Shown here piece by piece: positions 176 through 9,407 of a DNA stretch of 9,972 nt (the first letter of the stretch is position 1; the number at the start of each line of letters is the position of its first letter). The notes beneath the pieces are model-generated. The model searched no databases. It saw only the letters and a program-made list of their open reading frames with translations, and was not told the origin of the DNA. The position numbers and the translations under genes were made by a program. The stretch comes from Anaerolineae bacterium (GTDB lineage: Bacteria; Chloroflexota; Anaerolineae; JAFGEY01), in the NCBI GenBank assembly GCA_016931365.1, contig JAFGEY010000514.1:1-9972 (forward strand), written 5' to 3'.

Positions 176-251
176 GTGCGGTTTTTGCGCCATCGCCGGC
201 GTGAAAGGCAATGTGACCTTTACAATGACAGGGTATTACAGTCTAACCAAT

Positions 252-256
252 GGAGG
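252..256 (+). promoter_or_regulatory. Ribosome-binding site of the solute-binding lipoprotein gene
   Basis: GGAGG lies 10 bases upstream of the ATG at 267. This selects 267 as the start rather than an in-frame upstream codon at 27, whose 80 extra residues overlap the preceding gene in another frame and do not resemble a signal peptide. Confidence 0.85.
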
Positions 257-266
257 TAAACGTATT

Positions 267-1283
267 ATGAAAGAGAACAAATATCAGCGTAGGATTGGAA
301 ACTGGCAACTGCTGCTCACCCTGGTGGGCGTGCTTAGTTTGCTCTTGAGTGGCTGTGGGGCCAAAAAGCCCCAGGTCTATCGGGTGGGCATTTTGGCCGG
401 CCTGGGTTTTGTGGCCGACATCACCGATGGCTTCAAGGCCGGCATGGCCGAATTGGGCTACGTCGAAGGCGAGAATATCACCTACGATGTGCAGGCGACG
501 GAGTTCGACATGGCCGTTTACCAGAGTATCCTCAACAAATTCGTCGCCGACAAAGTTGATCTGATTGTGGTCTTCCCCACCGAAGCGTCGGTGGAGGCCA
601 AAATCGCCACGCAAGGGACCGACATCCCGGTGATCTTCACCTTTGCCCTCATCGAGGGGATGGGTCTGGTCGACAGTGTGCGTGAACCCGGCGGAAACAT
701 GACCGGCGTGCGCTATCCCGGCCCAGATATTGCCGTCAAGCGTTTCGAGATTTTGCGCGAGATTGCGCCAGAGGCTAAACGCATTTGGATGCCCTATCAG
801 CGTGATTATCCAATTGTGCAAAGCCAATTGGACGTCTTGTATCCTGTCGCAGAAGCCGCGGGTGTAACTTTGATCGAGTTTCCTGCCTCGAATCCGGCCG
901 AACTCGAAGCGGAACTGAGCGCACGAGCACAGCAGGACGATGTAGGCATGGATGCGATTCTGTTTCTCGTCGAACCGCTGGCTGTTACCCCGGATGATTA
1001 TCTGGTGATTGGCAAATTCGCCTACGAACACAAAATTCCGCTGGGTGGCGCTTTTATGACTGCAGAAGGCTACGACTCAATTTTTGGGGTGAACGTCATA
1101 TCGTACGATACGGGCTTGCTGGCAGCGCCCCTGGCTGACAAGATCTTCAAAGGCACGCCCGCCGGTACAATTCCTGTCGTCTCGGCTGAAAATTTCGTGC
1201 AGTTACACTATACCGCAGCGCAGCGGCTGGGAGTGACGATCCCTGAAGAATTGTTAAGCCAGGCAGATGAGGTTGTTCGCTAA
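267..1283 (+). CDS. ABC-type solute-binding lipoprotein (ABC_sub_bind / TrpX-like family)
   Basis: This 338-residue protein starts with a lipoprotein signal: basic residues (KYQRR), a hydrophobic stretch at about 13-28, and lipobox LLSGC with the lipidated cysteine at 30. It should sit on the outer face of the cytoplasmic membrane. The mature part has the periplasmic-binding-protein fold pattern of the ABC_sub_bind family (PF04392): VGILAG near 40, GFKAGMAELGY near 55-65, VDLIVVFPTEAS near 97-108, and a C-terminal signature at 281-338 containing GLLAAPLADKIFKG and LGVTIPEELLSQADEVV. The family binds small ligands, in some members aromatic amino acids or related compounds; the ligand here cannot be read. 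No permease or ATPase gene lies nearby. The next gene starts 24 bases downstream and encodes a sensor, so a role presenting ligand to signal transduction is plausible. Length is normal for the family. No convincing promoter is visible in 176-266. Confidence 0.9.
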   Translation: MKENKYQRRIGNWQLLLTLVGVLSLLLSGCGAKKPQVYRVGILAGLGFVADITDGFKAGMAELGYVEGENITYDVQATEFDMAVYQSILNKFVADKVDLIVVFPTEASVEAKIATQGTDIPVIFTFALIEGMGLVDSVREPGGNMTGVRYPGPDIAVKRFEILREIAPEAKRIWMPYQRDYPIVQSQLDVLYPVAEAAGVTLIEFPASNPAELEAELSARAQQDDVGMDAILFLVEPLAVTPDDYLVIGKFAYEHKIPLGGAFMTAEGYDSIFGVNVISYDTGLLAAPLADKIFKGTPAGTIPVVSAENFVQLHYTAAQRLGVTIPEELLSQADEVVR

Positions 1284-1307: not shown

Positions 1308-3089
1308 ATGACACTAGCTAGCAAAATCAAGACGCGAAAGGCGTCAACCCTGTTGGCTACAGCTTTTCTGATCTTGAGCTTAGTCGTTCTGGCGATTTCC
1401 AGCGGTATGGCGCTGATCTATAGCTATCAAGCGCAGCGCCAGTTTGTGGCCGATCGGCAGCAACGCATCGCTCGCCAGGCCGCCGATACGGTCGCGAGCT
1501 TTATCGAACAAAAGCTCAGTGAGCTGGATGCGGCTGCCAAACTGGGCATTCGCACCGCTACCTCGCCAGACGAGCAGCAGGTAGGTCTCAACAACCTTCT
1601 GGGTCTCGATCCTGCTTTTCGCCACGTCGCTTTGCTGGATGTTCAGGGTCAGGAAGTGGCGTGGGCCTCACGGTTGTCGAAACTGACCGCTGGGCAACTG
1701 GTTGAACGTACCAGCAGCGCTTTGCTGGATCAGGTCCGGCAAGGCAATCCGCAGATCAGCCCGGTTTACATCGATGAGGTCAGCAGCGAGCCGTTGACCG
1801 TTATGGCTGTCCCGGTCATCAACGTCTTCGGTGATCTGCAGGGGCTGTTGCTTGCCGAAGTCAACCTGAAGTTTATGTGGAACCTGGTCGATCGTCTGGA
1901 AATCGGCGAGACGGGCCTGGCCTATGTGGTGAACAATCAAGGCGACTTGCTGGCCTTCAGCGATACCTCCCGTGTTCTGCGGGGTGAGAATGTCACATCG
2001 ATACGTCAGGTGCGAGAGTTCGTTGACAGTCCGGCGCTCACCGAGACCTTCGCGGGCACGTTCAAAGGCATCTCTGGTGTCAATGTTGTGGGAGCCTACG
2101 CGCCTCTCGGCACGCCTGACTGGGCGGTGATGACCGAATTGTCCGTCTCGGAAGCATACCGCCAGGTCTTCCAGAGTGGGGTGATCGCTGCTGTCGGAAA
2201 CCTGGTTATGGCGATTCTGGCCAGCTCGCTAGGCCTTTTTGTTTCGCGCCGGTTAGCGAAACCGATTGTGACCCTGACGGAAACAACGACTCGTATTGCC
2301 GCGGGTGAAATGGACTTACGGGTTCCCGAAGTGGGTCCCGCCGAAGTGGTCGACCTGGCGGAGGCGTTCAACAGCATGGCGGCCCAGCTTCACGAGCTCA
2401 TCGGTGGCCTGGAAGCGCGCACCCGCGCGCTCGAAACCAGTACCGAGATCAGCCGCCGCTTGTCCACCCTCCTCGACCGGGAACAACTGGTGGCTGAGGT
2501 GGTGCAACAGGTGCAAAGTGCGTTCAATTACTACCACGCTCACATCTACTTGATCGACGAAGCCACGCGTGACCTGGTGATGACCGGCGGCACCGGCGAA
2601 GCCGGGCGCGTGATGCTGGCCAGCGGCCATCGAATTCCGTGGGGCGAAGGGTTGACCGGGCGAGCTGCTGTGACCAACAGCGTTATCCTGGTGCCGGATG
2701 TCTCACAGGAGGAGGGCTGGCTGCCCAACCCGCTGCTGCCCGGCACGAAATCCGAGGTTGCGGTACCGATTGCTGTGGGTGAGCGGGTGCTGGGGGTGCT
2801 GGACGTGCAGCACAACGTCGTTGACGGCCTGGGCGCCATCGATGCCGACATGCTGCAATCGATTGCCAATCAGATCGCCATCGCCTTGCAGAACGCCAGC
2901 CTGTTTGCCGAAACCCGGGAAAAGGCAGAGTATGAGACCTTCGTGAACCTGATCAACCAACGGATTCAAAGTACGGCCACTGTGGAAAATGCCCTACAGG
3001 TCGCCGTGAGCGAACTGGGACGGGCGCTGGGGACGCAACGCGCCAGTGTGCAGCTAACATTTGCGCCTGGTGAAGATCCCCTTTCCTAG
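1308..3089 (+). CDS. Membrane sensor protein: Cache-HAMP-GAF, no output domain
   Basis: The 593 residues read as: short basic N terminus; transmembrane helix at about 14-38; extracytoplasmic double-Cache-like region at about 45-285 (with VYIDEVSSEPLTVMAVPV and GLAYVVNNQGDLLA); second transmembrane helix at about 290-312; HAMP at about 313-366 (KPIVTLTETTTRIAAGEMDL); short helical linker; GAF domain at about 385-535 (FNYYHAHIYL, NPLLPGTKSEVAVP); and a 55-residue helical tail. This is a histidine-kinase input layout, but it stops before any HisKA, HATPase_c, GGDEF or methyl-accepting domain. It probably signals through a partner, most likely the kinase encoded 74 bases downstream, whose GAF domains share the same motifs. 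AAGAGG at 1294-1299 precedes the ATG by 8 bases. The gene lies 24 bases after the lipoprotein gene, suggesting co-transcription. The tail matches the partial protein at the left window edge, so the short form looks natural, not a truncation. Confidence 0.88.
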   Translation: MTLASKIKTRKASTLLATAFLILSLVVLAISSGMALIYSYQAQRQFVADRQQRIARQAADTVASFIEQKLSELDAAAKLGIRTATSPDEQQVGLNNLLGLDPAFRHVALLDVQGQEVAWASRLSKLTAGQLVERTSSALLDQVRQGNPQISPVYIDEVSSEPLTVMAVPVINVFGDLQGLLLAEVNLKFMWNLVDRLEIGETGLAYVVNNQGDLLAFSDTSRVLRGENVTSIRQVREFVDSPALTETFAGTFKGISGVNVVGAYAPLGTPDWAVMTELSVSEAYRQVFQSGVIAAVGNLVMAILASSLGLFVSRRLAKPIVTLTETTTRIAAGEMDLRVPEVGPAEVVDLAEAFNSMAAQLHELIGGLEARTRALETSTEISRRLSTLLDREQLVAEVVQQVQSAFNYYHAHIYLIDEATRDLVMTGGTGEAGRVMLASGHRIPWGEGLTGRAAVTNSVILVPDVSQEEGWLPNPLLPGTKSEVAVPIAVGERVLGVLDVQHNVVDGLGAIDADMLQSIANQIAIALQNASLFAETREKAEYETFVNLINQRIQSTATVENALQVAVSELGRALGTQRASVQLTFAPGEDPLS

Positions 3090-3163: not shown

Positions 3164-6100
3164 ATGAGCAAGAAAGACAGCAGACCCAAGACCGCTAAGG
3201 TCGAGGTTAACGCAGGCGCGTTGGAAGCCGCCGGAGCGGCGCCATCGCCTCTGGACAAGCGAACCGGATTCGCAGGGATGTGGCGCAATCGCAGCACTAC
3301 CTTCCGCTACGCGGTGTACGGCGCATTGTTCGGATTCGCGTTTCCCGTCTTTTCTACCTTACTGGACTTGTTGGTACAACGGCTCCCTTTGACGTGGCAA
3401 AACCTGCTCTATGTTCAGAGCAGAACGCCGCTGCATTGGGTGATCGATACAGCGCCCTTCTTTCTGGGCTTATTTGCGAGTTTCGCCGGCAGGCGCCAGG
3501 AACGGCTGGAACAACGAAGTCAGGAACGCGATCTGGTGCTGCGCCAACTCGAAAGCTTGCAGACCGGATTGGAGCAGCGCATGGCTGACCGTGCCCGCGC
3601 TCTGGCCCTGGCTACCGATGTTGGGCAGCGCCTCTTGGCGGTGCGCGACCTGGACACGCTGCTTGGGGAGGCTGTTGAACTGATCAGGTCGAGTTTCGAT
3701 CTGTATCACGTGCAAGTTTACTTGATGGATTCCTCCAGGCGCAACCTGAGTCTGCGTGCCGGTACAGGACAAGCGGGCGCGCTGCTGGTTCGCCGTGGAC
3801 ACACCCTGCCTGTGGGGCCTGGCTCGATTAATGGCACGGCTGCCGCTGAAAAACATGCTGTCATCGTTTCCCACACGGCTCAAAGCCCCACCTACAGGCT
3901 CAACCCGTTGCTGCCGGAGACACGCTCTGAGATGGCGGTTCCGATGATGATCGGCGGGCAGGTTGTCGGTGTGATCAATCTGCAGGATGACAAGCCCGGC
4001 TCTCTGACCAACGAGAGCCTCCCCATCTTCGAGACCCTGGCCAGCCAGTTCGCTGTCGCCGTCGATAACGCCAGTCTGTTCGCCGACGCTGCGCAAGCCC
4101 GGGCTGATTTGGAGGTCCAACTCAAGCGTGTGGCCAGTTCGGGATGGCAGGATTTTCTGGACAGCATTCACCGTGGTGAGCGGATCGGCTATACGCTTGC
4201 TGGAGATGCTGTGCAACCACTCACTGCGCCCCTGATCACAAAAGCTGCGCCGCACGTCCTGGAAGTACCACTTCAGGTGCAGGAAACGTCTGTCGGCATG
4301 ATTCAGATTGAGGGCGAGTCCGGCCGAGCCTGGACCGCAGCCGAGACCGAGTTGGTGGCGTCCGTTGCCCGCAATGTCGCGCAGCATGTCGAGAATCTGC
4401 GCCTGTTGGCGCAAGCTGATCAGTATCGCACGACCGCGGAGCAAGCCAGCCGGCGTTTGACCCGCGAGGGGTGGCAGGATTACCTGGCGGCCAAAGCCGG
4501 GATGAGCGCCGGTTTCGTATACGATCAACACGAAGTCAAACCGCTCGCGCCGGAGGGCGCGCAAACGGTCGAGGCACGCGAGCCTGCGTTGACCCGGCCG
4601 TTGCAGGTGCGCGGCGAGGCCATCGGTGAGCTGGCGCTTGGTCCGACCGAGGGATTGGACGATGAGGCCGTTGAATTGGTCGACACTGTCGCCGCACGGC
4701 TGAGCACGCACCTGGAAAACTTACGGCTGTTTGAGGAAACCAGAACCCGCGAGCAGGAGCTTGCAGAACGGAGTCAGGAGCTGGAGGCCAGCCAGCGCGT
4801 TACTTTCGCCGCCGCCGAAACCGCCGACCCCGAGGTGCTGCTGGATCTGGTCGTCAATCTGATCCGCGACCAGTTCGACCTCTATCACGTCCAGGTGTAC
4901 CTGGCGGATGAGGCGCGGAATGCGGCGGTGCTCAGTAAGGGCACGGGCTACGCCGGGCAGCAATTGCTCGCCCGCGGCCACCAGATTCCATTGGACCGTC
5001 CTTCCCTGGTGACGCGCGCCATCAACGCAGGACAAACCGTCATCGTAAACAACGTGACGGCGGATGAGAGCTGGCTGCCCAATCCACTGCTGCCGCAAAC
5101 CCAATCCGAGTTGGTGTTGCCGTTGCGGACGAGCGACAGCGTGATCGGCGCTTTGGATGTGCAGTCCCGCACACCCAATCGCTTTACCCCGGCCCTGGTC
5201 GCGCTCTTCCAGGCGATGGCCGAGCAGGTGGCGATGACCTTTCAGACCGCCAATTTGCTCACCCGAACGATGGAGCAGGCGGAGGTTCTGACCCGCTACG
5301 CCGGCCAGCTTGAAACCGCCGCTCAAGTCAGCGAGCGGGCAAGCGCCATCCTTGACCCTGAAGGGCTGATGAACGAGGTGGTTGAGCTGTTACAAAGTCG
5401 CTTTGGCCTCTATCACGCGCATATCTATTTGTTGGACCAGCCATCGCACGACATGATCGAGCGAACAGATCCCGAGGAAATGGCTCGTCTCATGCAAGAG
5501 CACAGATTATTCATGCGCGCAGGTTCCGGTGAGATAGGCAAAGTGTTGCGCGAGCGCGATCATAGCATCCCTCTCGATGCCGAGTACAGCCTGGTCGCGC
5601 GTGCTGCTCGCAGCCGGGAGATCAGCGTGGTGAACGACACCAGCCTTGATCCGAACTTTATGTCCAATCCCTTGTTGCCGCAAACTCGTTCCGAGCTTTC
5701 TATCCCCCTCATGACCGGCACCAGGGTGCTAGGGATATTGGACGTGCAGGATAACCGGCCTGATCGTTTCGGCCAGAGTGACGTGTCGACCTTCAGCACA
5801 TTGGCCGCTCAGGTCGCTACGGCGTTGCAGAATGCCGCGTTTTTCGAAGAACTGCAGCAGGCTGCCGAACGGTTGCGTGAGCTGGATAGGCTCAAGAGTG
5901 AGTTCCTGGCGAATATGAGCCACGAATTGCGCACCCCGCTCAACTCCATCGTTGGTTACATCCAGCTTTTGTTGATGGATCTCGAAGGCGAAATCCCCGA
6001 GGAGAGCTACGAGGATATGAAGTCCGTTGAGACCAACAGCAACCACTTGCTCAACCTGATCAACGATGTACTCGACCTGGCGCGGATCGAGGCCGGGCGT

Positions 6101-6577
6101 ATGGAGCTGCACCTGGACGCTATGGATGTACCCATGCTGCTCGACACCGTCCAAAGCAACAACACGGGTCTGTTTCTCAATAGCCCGCTGACGCTCACCG
6201 TCGAGGCCGAACCCGATCTCCCGCAGATCCAGGCCGACCCCATCCGGATGACCCAGGTGTTGAATAATCTCATCTCCAACGCCTACAAGTTCACCGAGGC
6301 CGGCGCTGTTACCGTGCACGCCTACCAGGAGAATGGCGAAGTCTGTATCGCCGTTGAGGACACGGGCATCGGCATCGATGAGAACGACCTGGCGAACGTT
6401 TTCGAGCGTTTCCGCCAGGTCGATGGCTCGTTCACCCGCCGGGCGGAGGGAACCGGTCTGGGATTGTCTATCACCCAGCGATTGGTCGAGATGCACGGCG
6501 GTCGCATCGTGGTACGCAGCAAGCCGGGAGAGGGGAGCACGTTTACCGTATATTTACCGGCTGTTGAGCCAGCTTAA
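3164..6577 (+). CDS. Multi-GAF membrane sensor histidine kinase
   Basis: This 1137-residue kinase has two hydrophobic helices at about 49-71 and 91-109, then an all-cytoplasmic signalling part: coiled coil at about 111-145; GAF 1 at about 145-305; two shortened GAF-like units at about 323-413 and 432-520, each opening with a GWQD(F/Y)L motif; GAF 2 at about 545-697; GAF 3 at about 722-893; HisKA at about 911-975; and HATPase_c at about 1022-1133. The phosphoacceptor is His920 in SHELRTPLNS. The ATP-binding boxes are intact: N box (NNLISNAYKF, 1034-1043), G1 (DTGIGI from 1066), F box (FERF from 1080) and G2 (GTGLGLS from 1096). It should autophosphorylate and pass phosphate to receiver domains; candidates are encoded immediately downstream. 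It has no receiver domain of its own. AGGAG at 3149-3153 supports the start. The loop between the helices is short, so the extracellular input may come from the neighbouring sensor protein (inference). Confidence 0.93.
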   Translation: MSKKDSRPKTAKVEVNAGALEAAGAAPSPLDKRTGFAGMWRNRSTTFRYAVYGALFGFAFPVFSTLLDLLVQRLPLTWQNLLYVQSRTPLHWVIDTAPFFLGLFASFAGRRQERLEQRSQERDLVLRQLESLQTGLEQRMADRARALALATDVGQRLLAVRDLDTLLGEAVELIRSSFDLYHVQVYLMDSSRRNLSLRAGTGQAGALLVRRGHTLPVGPGSINGTAAAEKHAVIVSHTAQSPTYRLNPLLPETRSEMAVPMMIGGQVVGVINLQDDKPGSLTNESLPIFETLASQFAVAVDNASLFADAAQARADLEVQLKRVASSGWQDFLDSIHRGERIGYTLAGDAVQPLTAPLITKAAPHVLEVPLQVQETSVGMIQIEGESGRAWTAAETELVASVARNVAQHVENLRLLAQADQYRTTAEQASRRLTREGWQDYLAAKAGMSAGFVYDQHEVKPLAPEGAQTVEAREPALTRPLQVRGEAIGELALGPTEGLDDEAVELVDTVAARLSTHLENLRLFEETRTREQELAERSQELEASQRVTFAAAETADPEVLLDLVVNLIRDQFDLYHVQVYLADEARNAAVLSKGTGYAGQQLLARGHQIPLDRPSLVTRAINAGQTVIVNNVTADESWLPNPLLPQTQSELVLPLRTSDSVIGALDVQSRTPNRFTPALVALFQAMAEQVAMTFQTANLLTRTMEQAEVLTRYAGQLETAAQVSERASAILDPEGLMNEVVELLQSRFGLYHAHIYLLDQPSHDMIERTDPEEMARLMQEHRLFMRAGSGEIGKVLRERDHSIPLDAEYSLVARAARSREISVVNDTSLDPNFMSNPLLPQTRSELSIPLMTGTRVLGILDVQDNRPDRFGQSDVSTFSTLAAQVATALQNAAFFEELQQAAERLRELDRLKSEFLANMSHELRTPLNSIVGYIQLLLMDLEGEIPEESYEDMKSVETNSNHLLNLINDVLDLARIEAGRMELHLDAMDVPMLLDTVQSNNTGLFLNSPLTLTVEAEPDLPQIQADPIRMTQVLNNLISNAYKFTEAGAVTVHAYQENGEVCIAVEDTGIGIDENDLANVFERFRQVDGSFTRRAEGTGLGLSITQRLVEMHGGRIVVRSKPGEGSTFTVYLPAVEPA

Positions 6578-6605: not shown

Positions 6606-8741
6606 ATGAAAACGTTATTTACTGTGGTGGAATGCCTGGAATGTGGGCACAGGATGCCGGCGAACTTGTTCGCCGGCACGTGTGCGGCCTGTGGGGGAAG
6701 CTGGCTGGATGCCCGGTACGATACCGGCGCGCTGCCGCCGGATTGGCCGGTTCTCCTGGCGCAACGCCCGTACGATTTGTGGCGCTTCCGCGAACTGTTG
6801 CCCTTCCCGGAGGACTTTGTTTTCAACGCGATGGGCGGCGAGGGCTGGACCCCCCTGACGCGCGCCCACGGCCTGGAACGCGAGCTAGATCATCACCCGC
6901 TGGGCGAAATCTGGATCAAGGACGAACGCCGCCAGCCCACCGGTTCGTTTAAAGACCGGCAGGCGGCCTTCACCACGAGCGTGCTCAAAGCGCAGGGCAT
7001 CGACGAGTTGGTACTGGCCTCTACCGGCAATGCCGCGGCAGCCTACGCCGCATACTGCGCCCGCGCCGGCATCAAATTCTGGGTCTTTTTACCGAGCAGC
7101 GTCCCGGCGGAAAAGATGCGCGAGCTGGGGCTATATGGTGCGGAGGTTATCAAAATCACCGGCACCTACGACGAGGCCAAGGAAATCGCCGCCGATTTCG
7201 CGATTCGCCGTGGCATCTACCGCGACGGCGGGGCCAAGTCCATTTCCGGCAAAGAGAGCATGAAGACCATCGCCCTGGAAATCGTGGAGCAGTTAGGCTG
7301 GCGTGCTCCGGATTGGTATGTGCAGGCCGTTTCCGGCGGGATTGGCCCGCTGGGCGTTCTGAAGGGCTTCGTCGAGCTGCACGCCGCGGGTCTGATCGAG
7401 CGCGTCCCCAAACTCGCCATCGTGCAGGTCGAGGGCTGCGCGCCGATGACCCGGGCATGGCAACAAGGGCTGGCGAAAGCCGAAGCCGTGCTGCCGGACA
7501 CGCTGATTACCATCCTCTCGACCGGCGATCCGGGGATGGCCTACACCATTCTCAAAGCTGCAATGGACACTCATGGCGGCGTGATGACGGCGGTCAGCGA
7601 CGGCGAGTCGTTCCGCACGATGCGCCGTGTCGCCCGCATCGAGGGCTATTCGATGGAGCCGGCGGCCAGCGTCGCCTTTGCCGGACTGGAAAAGCTCGTT
7701 GCCGAAGGCGTCATTCGTTCCGACGAGTGCGTGGTCGTCAACTGCTCCGGGCACACCTTCAGCGCTGAGAAGCACGCGCTCGAAGACCGCTACGCTTTCC
7801 ACCTGCAGATGGCGGTCCCGTCCGGAAACGGGGCTTCCGGCGACAGCGCGCCCAACACGACCAGCAACTACTCCAAAGACGGCCTTGTTTCTGCGTTGGA
7901 GCAACTCGACGAGCAGATCACGACCATCGTCATCATCGACGATAACCCGCACGACAGCCGCTTGCTCCGCCGGTTGTTGCTGCGTTACAAAAACTATCGT
8001 ATTTTCGAAGCGCACAACGGCCCGGACGGCCTGGACCTCGTCCGCCAGCGCCAGCCGGACCTGGTGGTGCTCGACCTGACCATCCCCGGCATCGATGGAT
8101 TTTCCATTCTGGAAAAGCTCAAGGCCGATCCGCGTACCAGCGAAATCCCGGTGGTGATCGTTTCGGCGAAATCCCTGACGACCGAGGAATGGACGCGCCT
8201 GCGCCGCCACACCCAATCCATCTGGCAGAAGGGTAATTTCGGCACTCAGGAACTCGTTCATCACGTTGTTGCGTTGTTGGGGGATAAAATGGAGCCGCCG
8301 GGCGAGCTACCTCAACTGCCCCTCGCCGGCGCGCCGCAATGGGAGACGGATTTTGGCCAGGAGCAATCCCCGCGCATCTTGCTGATCGATGATAACGTCT
8401 CGGACACGCGACTGTTGCGCCGGTTGTTTCAGGCGCGCCATCATGATTTCACCGTCGACGAAGCGCATTCTGGCGCGGAGGCATTGCGGGCCATCGAGAA
8501 CGCGCTGCCCGATCTCATTATCCTGGACTTGCTTCTACCCGACATTCCCGGCGAGAAACTCCTGGAGACGCTGCGCGCGATGCCGCATACGCGCGATATC
8601 CCGGTTGTTGTCCTTTCGGCCAAAGACATCATGCCGGCTACGCGGGTCAAACTGGCCGCGCTGGCGGATTCGATTTGGGAGAAAGGGGTTTTGGACCGCA
8701 GCAACTTTTTGACGCACGTCGAAACGATTCTGGTGGAGTAG
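6606..8741 (+). CDS. Threonine synthase-like PLP enzyme fused to two response-regulator receiver domains
   Basis: The 711 residues hold three modules. Residues 1-390 resemble thrC-type threonine synthase (O-phosphohomoserine to threonine): a zinc-ribbon with C10/C13 and C26/C29; PLP lysine K116 in PTGSFKDR; cofactor-contact asparagine N142 in STGN; glycine-rich phosphate loop SGGIGPLG at 243-250; and SGH at 381-383, where the family contacts the pyridine nitrogen. A Ser/Asn/Gly-rich linker leads to receiver 1 (about 440-558; acidic pair D445/D446, phospho-Asp D490, S520, K542). A Pro/Gly-rich linker leads to receiver 2 (about 590-706; D595/D596, D641, S671, K693). Both receivers look phosphorylatable. 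The frame is open throughout with uniform codon use, so this is a real fusion. The start is 28 bases after the kinase stop, implying one operon. The ribosome-binding site is weak; GTG at 6585 is an alternative start. The catalytic region could instead belong to a related fold-type II enzyme such as cysteate synthase. The domain calls are firm; substrate and regulation are inferred. Confidence 0.9.
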   Translation: MKTLFTVVECLECGHRMPANLFAGTCAACGGSWLDARYDTGALPPDWPVLLAQRPYDLWRFRELLPFPEDFVFNAMGGEGWTPLTRAHGLERELDHHPLGEIWIKDERRQPTGSFKDRQAAFTTSVLKAQGIDELVLASTGNAAAAYAAYCARAGIKFWVFLPSSVPAEKMRELGLYGAEVIKITGTYDEAKEIAADFAIRRGIYRDGGAKSISGKESMKTIALEIVEQLGWRAPDWYVQAVSGGIGPLGVLKGFVELHAAGLIERVPKLAIVQVEGCAPMTRAWQQGLAKAEAVLPDTLITILSTGDPGMAYTILKAAMDTHGGVMTAVSDGESFRTMRRVARIEGYSMEPAASVAFAGLEKLVAEGVIRSDECVVVNCSGHTFSAEKHALEDRYAFHLQMAVPSGNGASGDSAPNTTSNYSKDGLVSALEQLDEQITTIVIIDDNPHDSRLLRRLLLRYKNYRIFEAHNGPDGLDLVRQRQPDLVVLDLTIPGIDGFSILEKLKADPRTSEIPVVIVSAKSLTTEEWTRLRRHTQSIWQKGNFGTQELVHHVVALLGDKMEPPGELPQLPLAGAPQWETDFGQEQSPRILLIDDNVSDTRLLRRLFQARHHDFTVDEAHSGAEALRAIENALPDLIILDLLLPDIPGEKLLETLRAMPHTRDIPVVVLSAKDIMPATRVKLAALADSIWEKGVLDRSNFLTHVETILVE

Positions 8742-8957: not shown

Positions 8958-9407
8958 ATGTCGGAACAGAAAACGGTCCTGTACATCGAGGATAATCCGC
9001 ACAACCGCCGCTTGGTGCGTCGCACGCTGGAACGCCGGGGTTACGACCTTATTGAGGCGGAGGACGGTGAGATCGGATTGGCCATGGTGCAGGAATTGCG
9101 GCCACCCTTGATCCTGCTGGACATCGGGCTGCCCAAAATGGACGGCATGGAAGTCGTCGGGCGCATCAAAGCCGACGCCGACCTTTGCAACATTCCCGTT
9201 ATCGCTATCACGGCCTCTGCTATGCAGGGCGACCGCGAGCGTTTTCTGGCGGCCGGCTGCGACGATTATCTGTCAAAGCCTATCCAGGTATTGGAATTGA
9301 TCGACAAGGTCAACCAGTATTATCCCTCTGTGACGAATGTGTATCAACAGCAAAAGGCGCGCGTAGAGGAAGAAAAAGCCTCGACAGATGGCGCAGATGA
9401 GCGATAA
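8958..9407 (+). CDS. Single-domain response regulator (CheY/DivK-like receiver)
   Basis: The chosen start gives 149 residues beginning MSEQKTVLYIEDN. A complete receiver domain spans about 5-122: acidic pocket E11/D12, phosphoacceptor D55 in LILLDIGLPKMDG, T85 in AITASA, and K107 in LSKPI. A charged tail (QQQKARVEEEKAS) follows, with no DNA-binding or enzymatic output domain. It should work by phosphorylation-dependent protein contacts or as a phosphate shuttle, with the kinase at 3164-6577 the obvious candidate donor. In-frame upstream starts at 8910 (TTG) and 8916 (ATG) would add residues outside the receiver fold, and no Shine-Dalgarno sequence supports any of the choices. The start at 8958 is preferred because it begins right at the domain and lies downstream of the candidate promoter. 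It is separated by 216 bases from the fusion gene and may have its own promoter. Confidence 0.92.
   Translation: MSEQKTVLYIEDNPHNRRLVRRTLERRGYDLIEAEDGEIGLAMVQELRPPLILLDIGLPKMDGMEVVGRIKADADLCNIPVIAITASAMQGDRERFLAAGCDDYLSKPIQVLELIDKVNQYYPSVTNVYQQQKARVEEEKASTDGADER

Follow-up and report, generated by a model that had tools for sequence, protein, structure and literature searches.

A putative response regulator of Chloroflexota with a threonine synthase-derived pyridoxal phosphate enzyme as its candidate output

The outputs of two-component systems are mostly transcriptional or act through second messengers. In the window analysed here, the whole stretch of 9,972 nucleotides from an Anaerolineae bacterium, a gene behind a histidine kinase joins a pyridoxal phosphate (PLP) enzyme of the threonine synthase (ThrC) type to two receiver (REC) domains. 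What could a sensor kinase govern through such a protein? We consider it fairly likely that the protein acts as a response regulator with a ThrC-derived fold-type II PLP enzyme, equipped with a zinc ribbon, as its output, and that this enzyme is tuned by phosphorylation of the receivers from the upstream kinase. The features of the protein are:

6606..8741, + strand: zinc ribbon-PALP-REC-REC protein, 711 residues plus stop, a single open frame
6633..6692, + strand: zinc-ribbon cysteines C10, C13, C26 and C29 (alignment of 80 fused sequences)
6834..7745, + strand: PALP (fold-type II PLP) domain, residues 77-380 (Pfam PF00291, E 2.8e-65)
6951-6953, + strand: Schiff-base lysine K116
7875..7913, + strand: helix 424-436 (LEQLDEQ region) on the N-terminal side of REC1 (predicted helix and conservation)
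7926..8279, + strand: REC1, residues 441-558 (Pfam PF00072; D446, D490 and K542 conserved)
8073-8075, + strand: REC1 phosphoacceptor D490
8373..8735, + strand: REC2, residues 590-710 (Pfam PF00072, second stretch)
8526-8528, + strand: REC2 phosphoacceptor D641

An earlier note on this DNA had described one continuous frame connecting a zinc ribbon, a PLP enzyme with K116 and two receivers with complete phosphorylation pockets. This description holds: positions 6606-8741 form one open frame, Pfam agrees on the domains (Response_reg PF00072 in two stretches of the 711-residue protein, E 4.3e-34), and K116, D490 and D641 are placed as it had given them. Conservation was counted in an alignment of 80 fused sequences, 59 of them with two RECs. 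The PLP lysine K116, within a PTxSFKDR-type motif, is found in 80/80 fused proteins, STGN and SGG.GP are invariant, and the PLP phosphate loop and GHT are retained. The ribbon cysteines C26 and C29 are present in 80/80 rows, C10 and C13 in 72/72 and 73/73 ungapped rows, respectively. Both phosphorylation pockets are complete, with D446, D490 and K542 of REC1 each in 80/80 sequences and serine or threonine at position 520 in 80/80; in REC2, D641 is found in 58/59, K693 in 59/59 and serine or threonine at 671 in 59/59 two-REC rows. Helix 424-436 carries five invariant residues, L431, Q433, D435, E436 and Q437 (29 rows). Mean pairwise identity among the 59 two-REC rows decreases from the PALP domain (0.80) over REC1 (0.69) to REC2 (0.62). 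Because it is the best-conserved part of the protein, the PLP domain is, judged from its sequence, probably active.

An AlphaFold model (pTM 0.62 for the whole model) shows PALP as a well-predicted domain, connected by linkers (390-437 and 566-585) with pLDDT values below 50. No fixed contact between PALP and the receivers is present in this model, so that the coupling mechanism is not visible there. A structure search returned threonine synthase and cysteate synthase as the top PDB chains for the PALP domain; its lists were taken up by PALP-domain matches, and the receivers fell outside that comparison. In four family members (P0046, P0047, P0053 and P0066) one PALP loop carries a low-complexity insertion made up of short, imperfect repeats (e.g. 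EASRERGRE), located just past the stretch matching residues 229-230 of the window protein, where other members have short insertions.

Four further genes surround the fusion:

240..1283, + strand: lipoprotein-like periplasmic binding protein of the ABC_sub_bind type, first gene of the likely operon (Pfam PF04392, E 4e-34)
1308..3089, + strand: dCache-HAMP-GAF protein without a kinase core (Pfam PF02743, PF00672, PF13185)
3164..6577, + strand: multi-GAF histidine kinase with HisKA and HATPase_c (Pfam GAF_3 in 4 stretches; PF00512, PF02518)
8958..9407, + strand: stand-alone single REC protein (PF00072, E 1.3e-26; frame open from 8910, ATG at 8958 the likely start)

With five genes, all on the + strand, the window looks like one putative signalling operon. 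The kinase gene ends at 6577, 28 bases upstream of the start codon of the fusion. By Pfam, no receiver domain was found in this kinase and no match to HisKA or HATPase_c in the dCache-HAMP-GAF protein. The translated binding protein shows, by eye, a lipobox-like LLSGCG. A gene order like that of the window was seen at two other loci (L039 and L067). At three loci an NMT1-type binding protein precedes the kinase and replaces ABC_sub_bind (L057:5608-6669, assigned by Pfam; L060:3015-3998 and L041:5406-6509, assigned by eye). The input binding protein thus appears to be exchangeable between loci.

The earlier note had called the enzyme threonine synthase-like. Though the fold matches ThrC best, we rejected an identity as threonine synthase on model cut-offs and motifs. 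The 25 NCBIfam models listed include six threonine-synthase equivalogs, and the fusion remained under the cut-off of every one of them (PRK08197 gave the best score with 263.1 bits against 303, TIGR00260 reached 144.8 against 167.1 and another model 186.6 against 421). The motif NSVNPxRxEGQK, the arginine of which we take to bind the substrate phosphate of O-phosphohomoserine in ThrC, occurs in 0/80 aligned fused proteins and 0/79 fused loci, and the same counts apply to the threonine after STGN (STGNT). In the rows sampled STGN is followed by A, K or V (in two-REC rows by A143 in 58/59 and by K in 1/59), and the place of NSVNPxRxEGQK is taken by a D.GAK.I.GKES.KT-type stretch that is looser in the one-REC form. 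Of the 20 genomes examined, 17 have the canonical ThrC motif in a separate gene, found at once in 14 and, in three, after more paralogs had been fetched; for G003, G006 and G007 none was among the paralog matches fetched, which were a part of all matches. Given scores below the cut-offs, the missing ThrC motif and the separate ThrC genes, the fused protein is probably not a threonine synthase.

In the source annotations, family members are called 'threonine synthase' or 'pyridoxal-phosphate dependent enzyme'. Three JGI entries (P0046-P0048) combine 'threonine synthase' with the name of an OmpR-type or CheY-like regulator, so automatic annotation already registers the double nature of these proteins. 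Several loci (L111, L112, L113, L115, L116, L118, L120 and others) represent a second stand-alone PALP paralog with the motif NTGxNPYxxEGKK, which many of these genomes have in addition to canonical ThrC and which may be misannotated as threonine synthase. The ThrC arginine is absent from these paralogs too; the fused family is therefore not alone in leaving the ThrC pattern. Chloroflexota proteins labelled 'threonine synthase' may not be such enzymes, which matters for pathway prediction.

Nothing firm on the substrate emerged from the neighbouring genes of fused loci. BLASTP clustering placed a GNAT acetyltransferase gene (≈296 residues; cluster checked by Pfam on one representative) one to three genes downstream of the fusion at 28/77 loci, on the same strand in 28/28 (among them L013:14164-15075, L014:10044-10928, L025:12540-13430 and L059:10610-11500). 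A stricter single-query count gave 16/52 two-REC loci, 4/6 one-REC loci of the first scan and 0/22 further one-REC loci. In the 20 genomes GNAT is mostly single copy; 16 of them have it, and in only 6 of these does it adjoin the two-REC gene. Of 7 loci fetched from elsewhere in the genome, 4 show it directly behind a single REC gene. GNAT as a pathway partner of the PLP enzyme was rejected; it seems to travel with the downstream REC instead, for which reason it was not used to name the reaction, and REC and GNAT together may form a two-gene signalling module of their own. A similar-sized protein at L048 proved to be of the hydroxyisobutyrate-dehydrogenase type and no GNAT. Clustering also found, at 11 loci, a PA14-SH3 protein (assigned by Pfam on L038:12854-14368) two to three genes downstream of the fusion.

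The question is whether the domain turns over a substrate at all. It could serve as a sensing or scaffolding module, in which occupancy by PLP and an amino acid alters phosphoryl exchange between receivers and kinase with little or no turnover. Such a role would fit the loss of the ThrC substrate-site motif, the lack of a metabolic partner gene constant across loci, and the remainder of the window's likely operon, which consists of signalling or binding proteins. However, K116, STGN, GHT and the PLP phosphate loop have all survived, and PALP exceeds the receivers in conservation, as would rather be expected of an active enzyme; we regard this role as unlikely. If the domain is active, it could still be a second, regulated threonine synthase that uses O-phosphohomoserine and lets the kinase tune the threonine supply. 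The best-matching fold is that of ThrC, but none of the six threonine-synthase cut-offs is reached, the canonical motif and STGNT are missing from all 80 fused proteins, and 17 of 20 genomes have a canonical gene besides, which renders this alternative rather improbable. A receiver-tuned enzyme of another reaction is the reading that we prefer, and the link to the kinase speaks for it.

Linkage was counted by a six-frame search around each gene, restricted to loci with 1.5 kb or more of upstream sequence and to kinases on the same strand, with loci of stand-alone PALP paralogs as controls. A histidine kinase lies within 2.5 kb upstream at 47/63 two-REC loci (39/63 within 400 bases), at 6/7 one-REC loci of the first scan and at 18/22 further one-REC loci fetched from genomes, against 0/16 control loci; the loci come from related MAGs, and these counts are not independent events. 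The functional link to a histidine kinase that the earlier note had drawn from the gene order is supported by these numbers. The idea that the fusion always stands next to a multi-GAF kinase is true of most loci and fails as a rule, since 16/63 two-REC and 4/22 further one-REC loci have no histidine kinase within 2.5 kb upstream. At seven two-REC loci the kinase is 1.1-1.5 kb away and a REC-bearing gene of 353-373 residues lies in between. The gene between kinase and fusion at L018:2271-3392 encodes, by eye, a REC protein with an adenylate/guanylate-cyclase-like part; a similar gene precedes the fusion at L003:2589-3674, where no histidine kinase was seen. Cyclic-nucleotide signalling may thus share the operon. 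At four other loci (L023, L024, L026 and L029), where no kinase was found, the gene immediately preceding the fusion encodes 383 residues; in L023 its product looks acyl-CoA-dehydrogenase-like by eye.

The distribution of receivers differs between the two forms of the fusion. The kinase within 400 bases bears a REC at 0/39 two-REC loci, at 2/5 one-REC loci of the first scan and at 13/18 one-REC loci from genomes. Conversely, a REC reading frame follows the fusion at 55/65 two-REC loci and at 5/8 (first scan) and 4/22 (genomes) one-REC loci, compared to 0/17 controls; the six-frame count was needed here because antisense frames overlie the REC frames at 12 loci. A histidine kinase lies downstream of the fusion at 9/22 one-REC loci from genomes. 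Since both the kinase REC and the downstream REC counts differ by form, receivers seem to be traded between kinase and enzyme while the operon retains several of them.

A varying number of receivers between enzyme and kinase, together with the single REC genes that follow in 55/65 two-REC loci, would also suit a role of the receivers as phosphate sink or relay, serving the kinase and the single REC nearby, with the enzyme as an unregulated carrier. This would leave unexplained why PALP is fused in all 44 matches of the phylum (see below) and why it is the most conserved part of the protein, and we give it little chance. The fusion is a conserved feature of a protein family. PALP and REC are both present in 119/119 of the best other database matches (best of 7386; identity 61-92%). 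A scan of one genome per species yielded 184 relatives, of which the best 80 were kept, 79/80 from Chloroflexota. Among 301 Chloroflexota genomes, a sample that takes in the centre genome G009, picked because the gene is present there, matches at E ≤ 1e-70 occur in 34. There are 44 of them, each in an open frame of at least 551 residues (stop-to-stop length). The absence of a frame break and the recurrence of the fusion bear out the earlier note, and an assembly artefact or one-off fusion has a negligible probability in view of the 119 other fused matches, the 80 genome loci and the 34/301 genomes.

Two main forms exist, one of ≈700 residues with two RECs and one of ≈555 residues with one REC. 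The former is rarer: among the 44 matches in 301 genomes, frames of at least 700 residues occur only in G007 and G009, and eight other best phylum matches (L131-L138) have one REC each. Two matches per genome were found in 10 of the 34 positive genomes, and a family frame of one-REC length (550-597 residues) is also present in 16 of 20 genomes picked for the two-REC form. In a search that left out proteins of more than 672 residues, 17 of the 120 matches listed consist of PALP alone. Eight of these proteins were inspected by eye; P0183 and probably P0173 look frame-shifted near the end, and P0210, P0191, P0178 and P0202 look coherent. An apparent split gene at L151 proved to be a gene-calling error, L151 being fused.

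A quick tree of 106 rows unites the fused proteins in a single clade (SH-aLRT 100), separate from stand-alone paralogs of the same genomes; long branches occur among the outgroup rows, the order of which was not relied on. Within the clade, 31 one-REC rows group with a support of 99. Other rows labelled one-REC are scattered among two-REC rows, and starred branches force at least six changes; these labels were set by protein length, and some of the scattered rows may be fragments. L071, a fragment that the script had labelled stand-alone, falls inside the fused clade. Three of the four coherent stand-alone proteins were placed in the tree and are nested within this clade as well, so their lack of receivers seems to be due to secondary loss.

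Our mechanistic proposal starts from a single frame, conserved catalytic and phosphoacceptor residues, kinase linkage, a single clade and a separate ThrC gene in most genomes. Signals would reach the GAF domains of the kinase, and a periplasmic signal could perhaps be relayed through the ABC_sub_bind and dCache-HAMP-GAF proteins. The kinase would then phosphorylate D490 and/or D641, a phosphotransfer that we infer from gene order and conserved pockets. Phosphorylated receivers might change their packing or dimerisation, and the conserved helix 424-436 or an altered oligomerisation would carry this change to the PLP enzyme, altering how active it is or how it assembles. The reaction itself is presumably a β- or γ-elimination or replacement on an amino acid other than O-phosphohomoserine. 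More tentatively, and with somewhat less than even confidence, we propose that these proteins of Anaerolineae and related Chloroflexota make up a new class of response regulators with enzymatic output, where phosphorylation gates a ThrC-derived PLP enzyme of a different reaction. The common one-REC form would often be fed by a hybrid kinase and the rarer two-REC form by a receiver-free kinase, with genomes that have the two-REC form mostly holding both.

If this is true, a conserved amino-acid PLP enzyme as output would be a direct link from sensor to metabolism, and environmental sensing would control amino-acid chemistry directly, without transcription. The paralogs and the natural swap of receivers between kinase and enzyme make this wiring testable.

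Compared to ThrC (Arabidopsis 2c2b, Thermus 1v7c, Bacillus 6nmx), the fusion protein shares the fold, the PLP lysine within PTGSFKDR and the STGN loop, and its match to the PRK08197 model begins at residue 3, taking in the ribbon region. It differs in lacking NSVNPxRxEGQK and the threonine after STGN, in scores below the model cut-offs and in having two receivers. Arabidopsis threonine synthase reportedly has S-adenosylmethionine as an allosteric activator, and 2c2b is, by its title, a complex with this compound. For cysteate synthase (CapA2, 9k3c; TIGR03844) the fusion scores 135.2 bits against a cut-off of 324.9, and we know of no receivers as part of that family. With response regulators of enzymatic output such as PleD and CheB, the family has in common intact RECs and an enzyme domain beside a kinase: its REC pocket is complete, its enzyme domain is conserved within the same chain and it is linked to histidine kinases. 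The enzyme is N-terminal here, followed by the two RECs. A full-text literature search, with the Galperin reviews of 2006 and 2010 (the sources that PMC5847659 gives for enzymatic outputs in bacteria) outside its scope, returned no description of a PLP-enzyme response regulator in the titles and abstract beginnings it covered, and passages of PMC3162934, PMC7090099 and PMC12172450 contain nothing bearing on one. Both bacteria and archaea have RECs joined to metabolic enzymes, with narrow phyletic ranges for the archaeal fusions, and the passages on such REC fusions name no PLP enzyme (Galperin et al. 2018, PMC5847659). We thus rate receivers fused to metabolic enzymes as a recognised, scattered kind of protein, and a PLP enzyme as their partner as a new variant of it.
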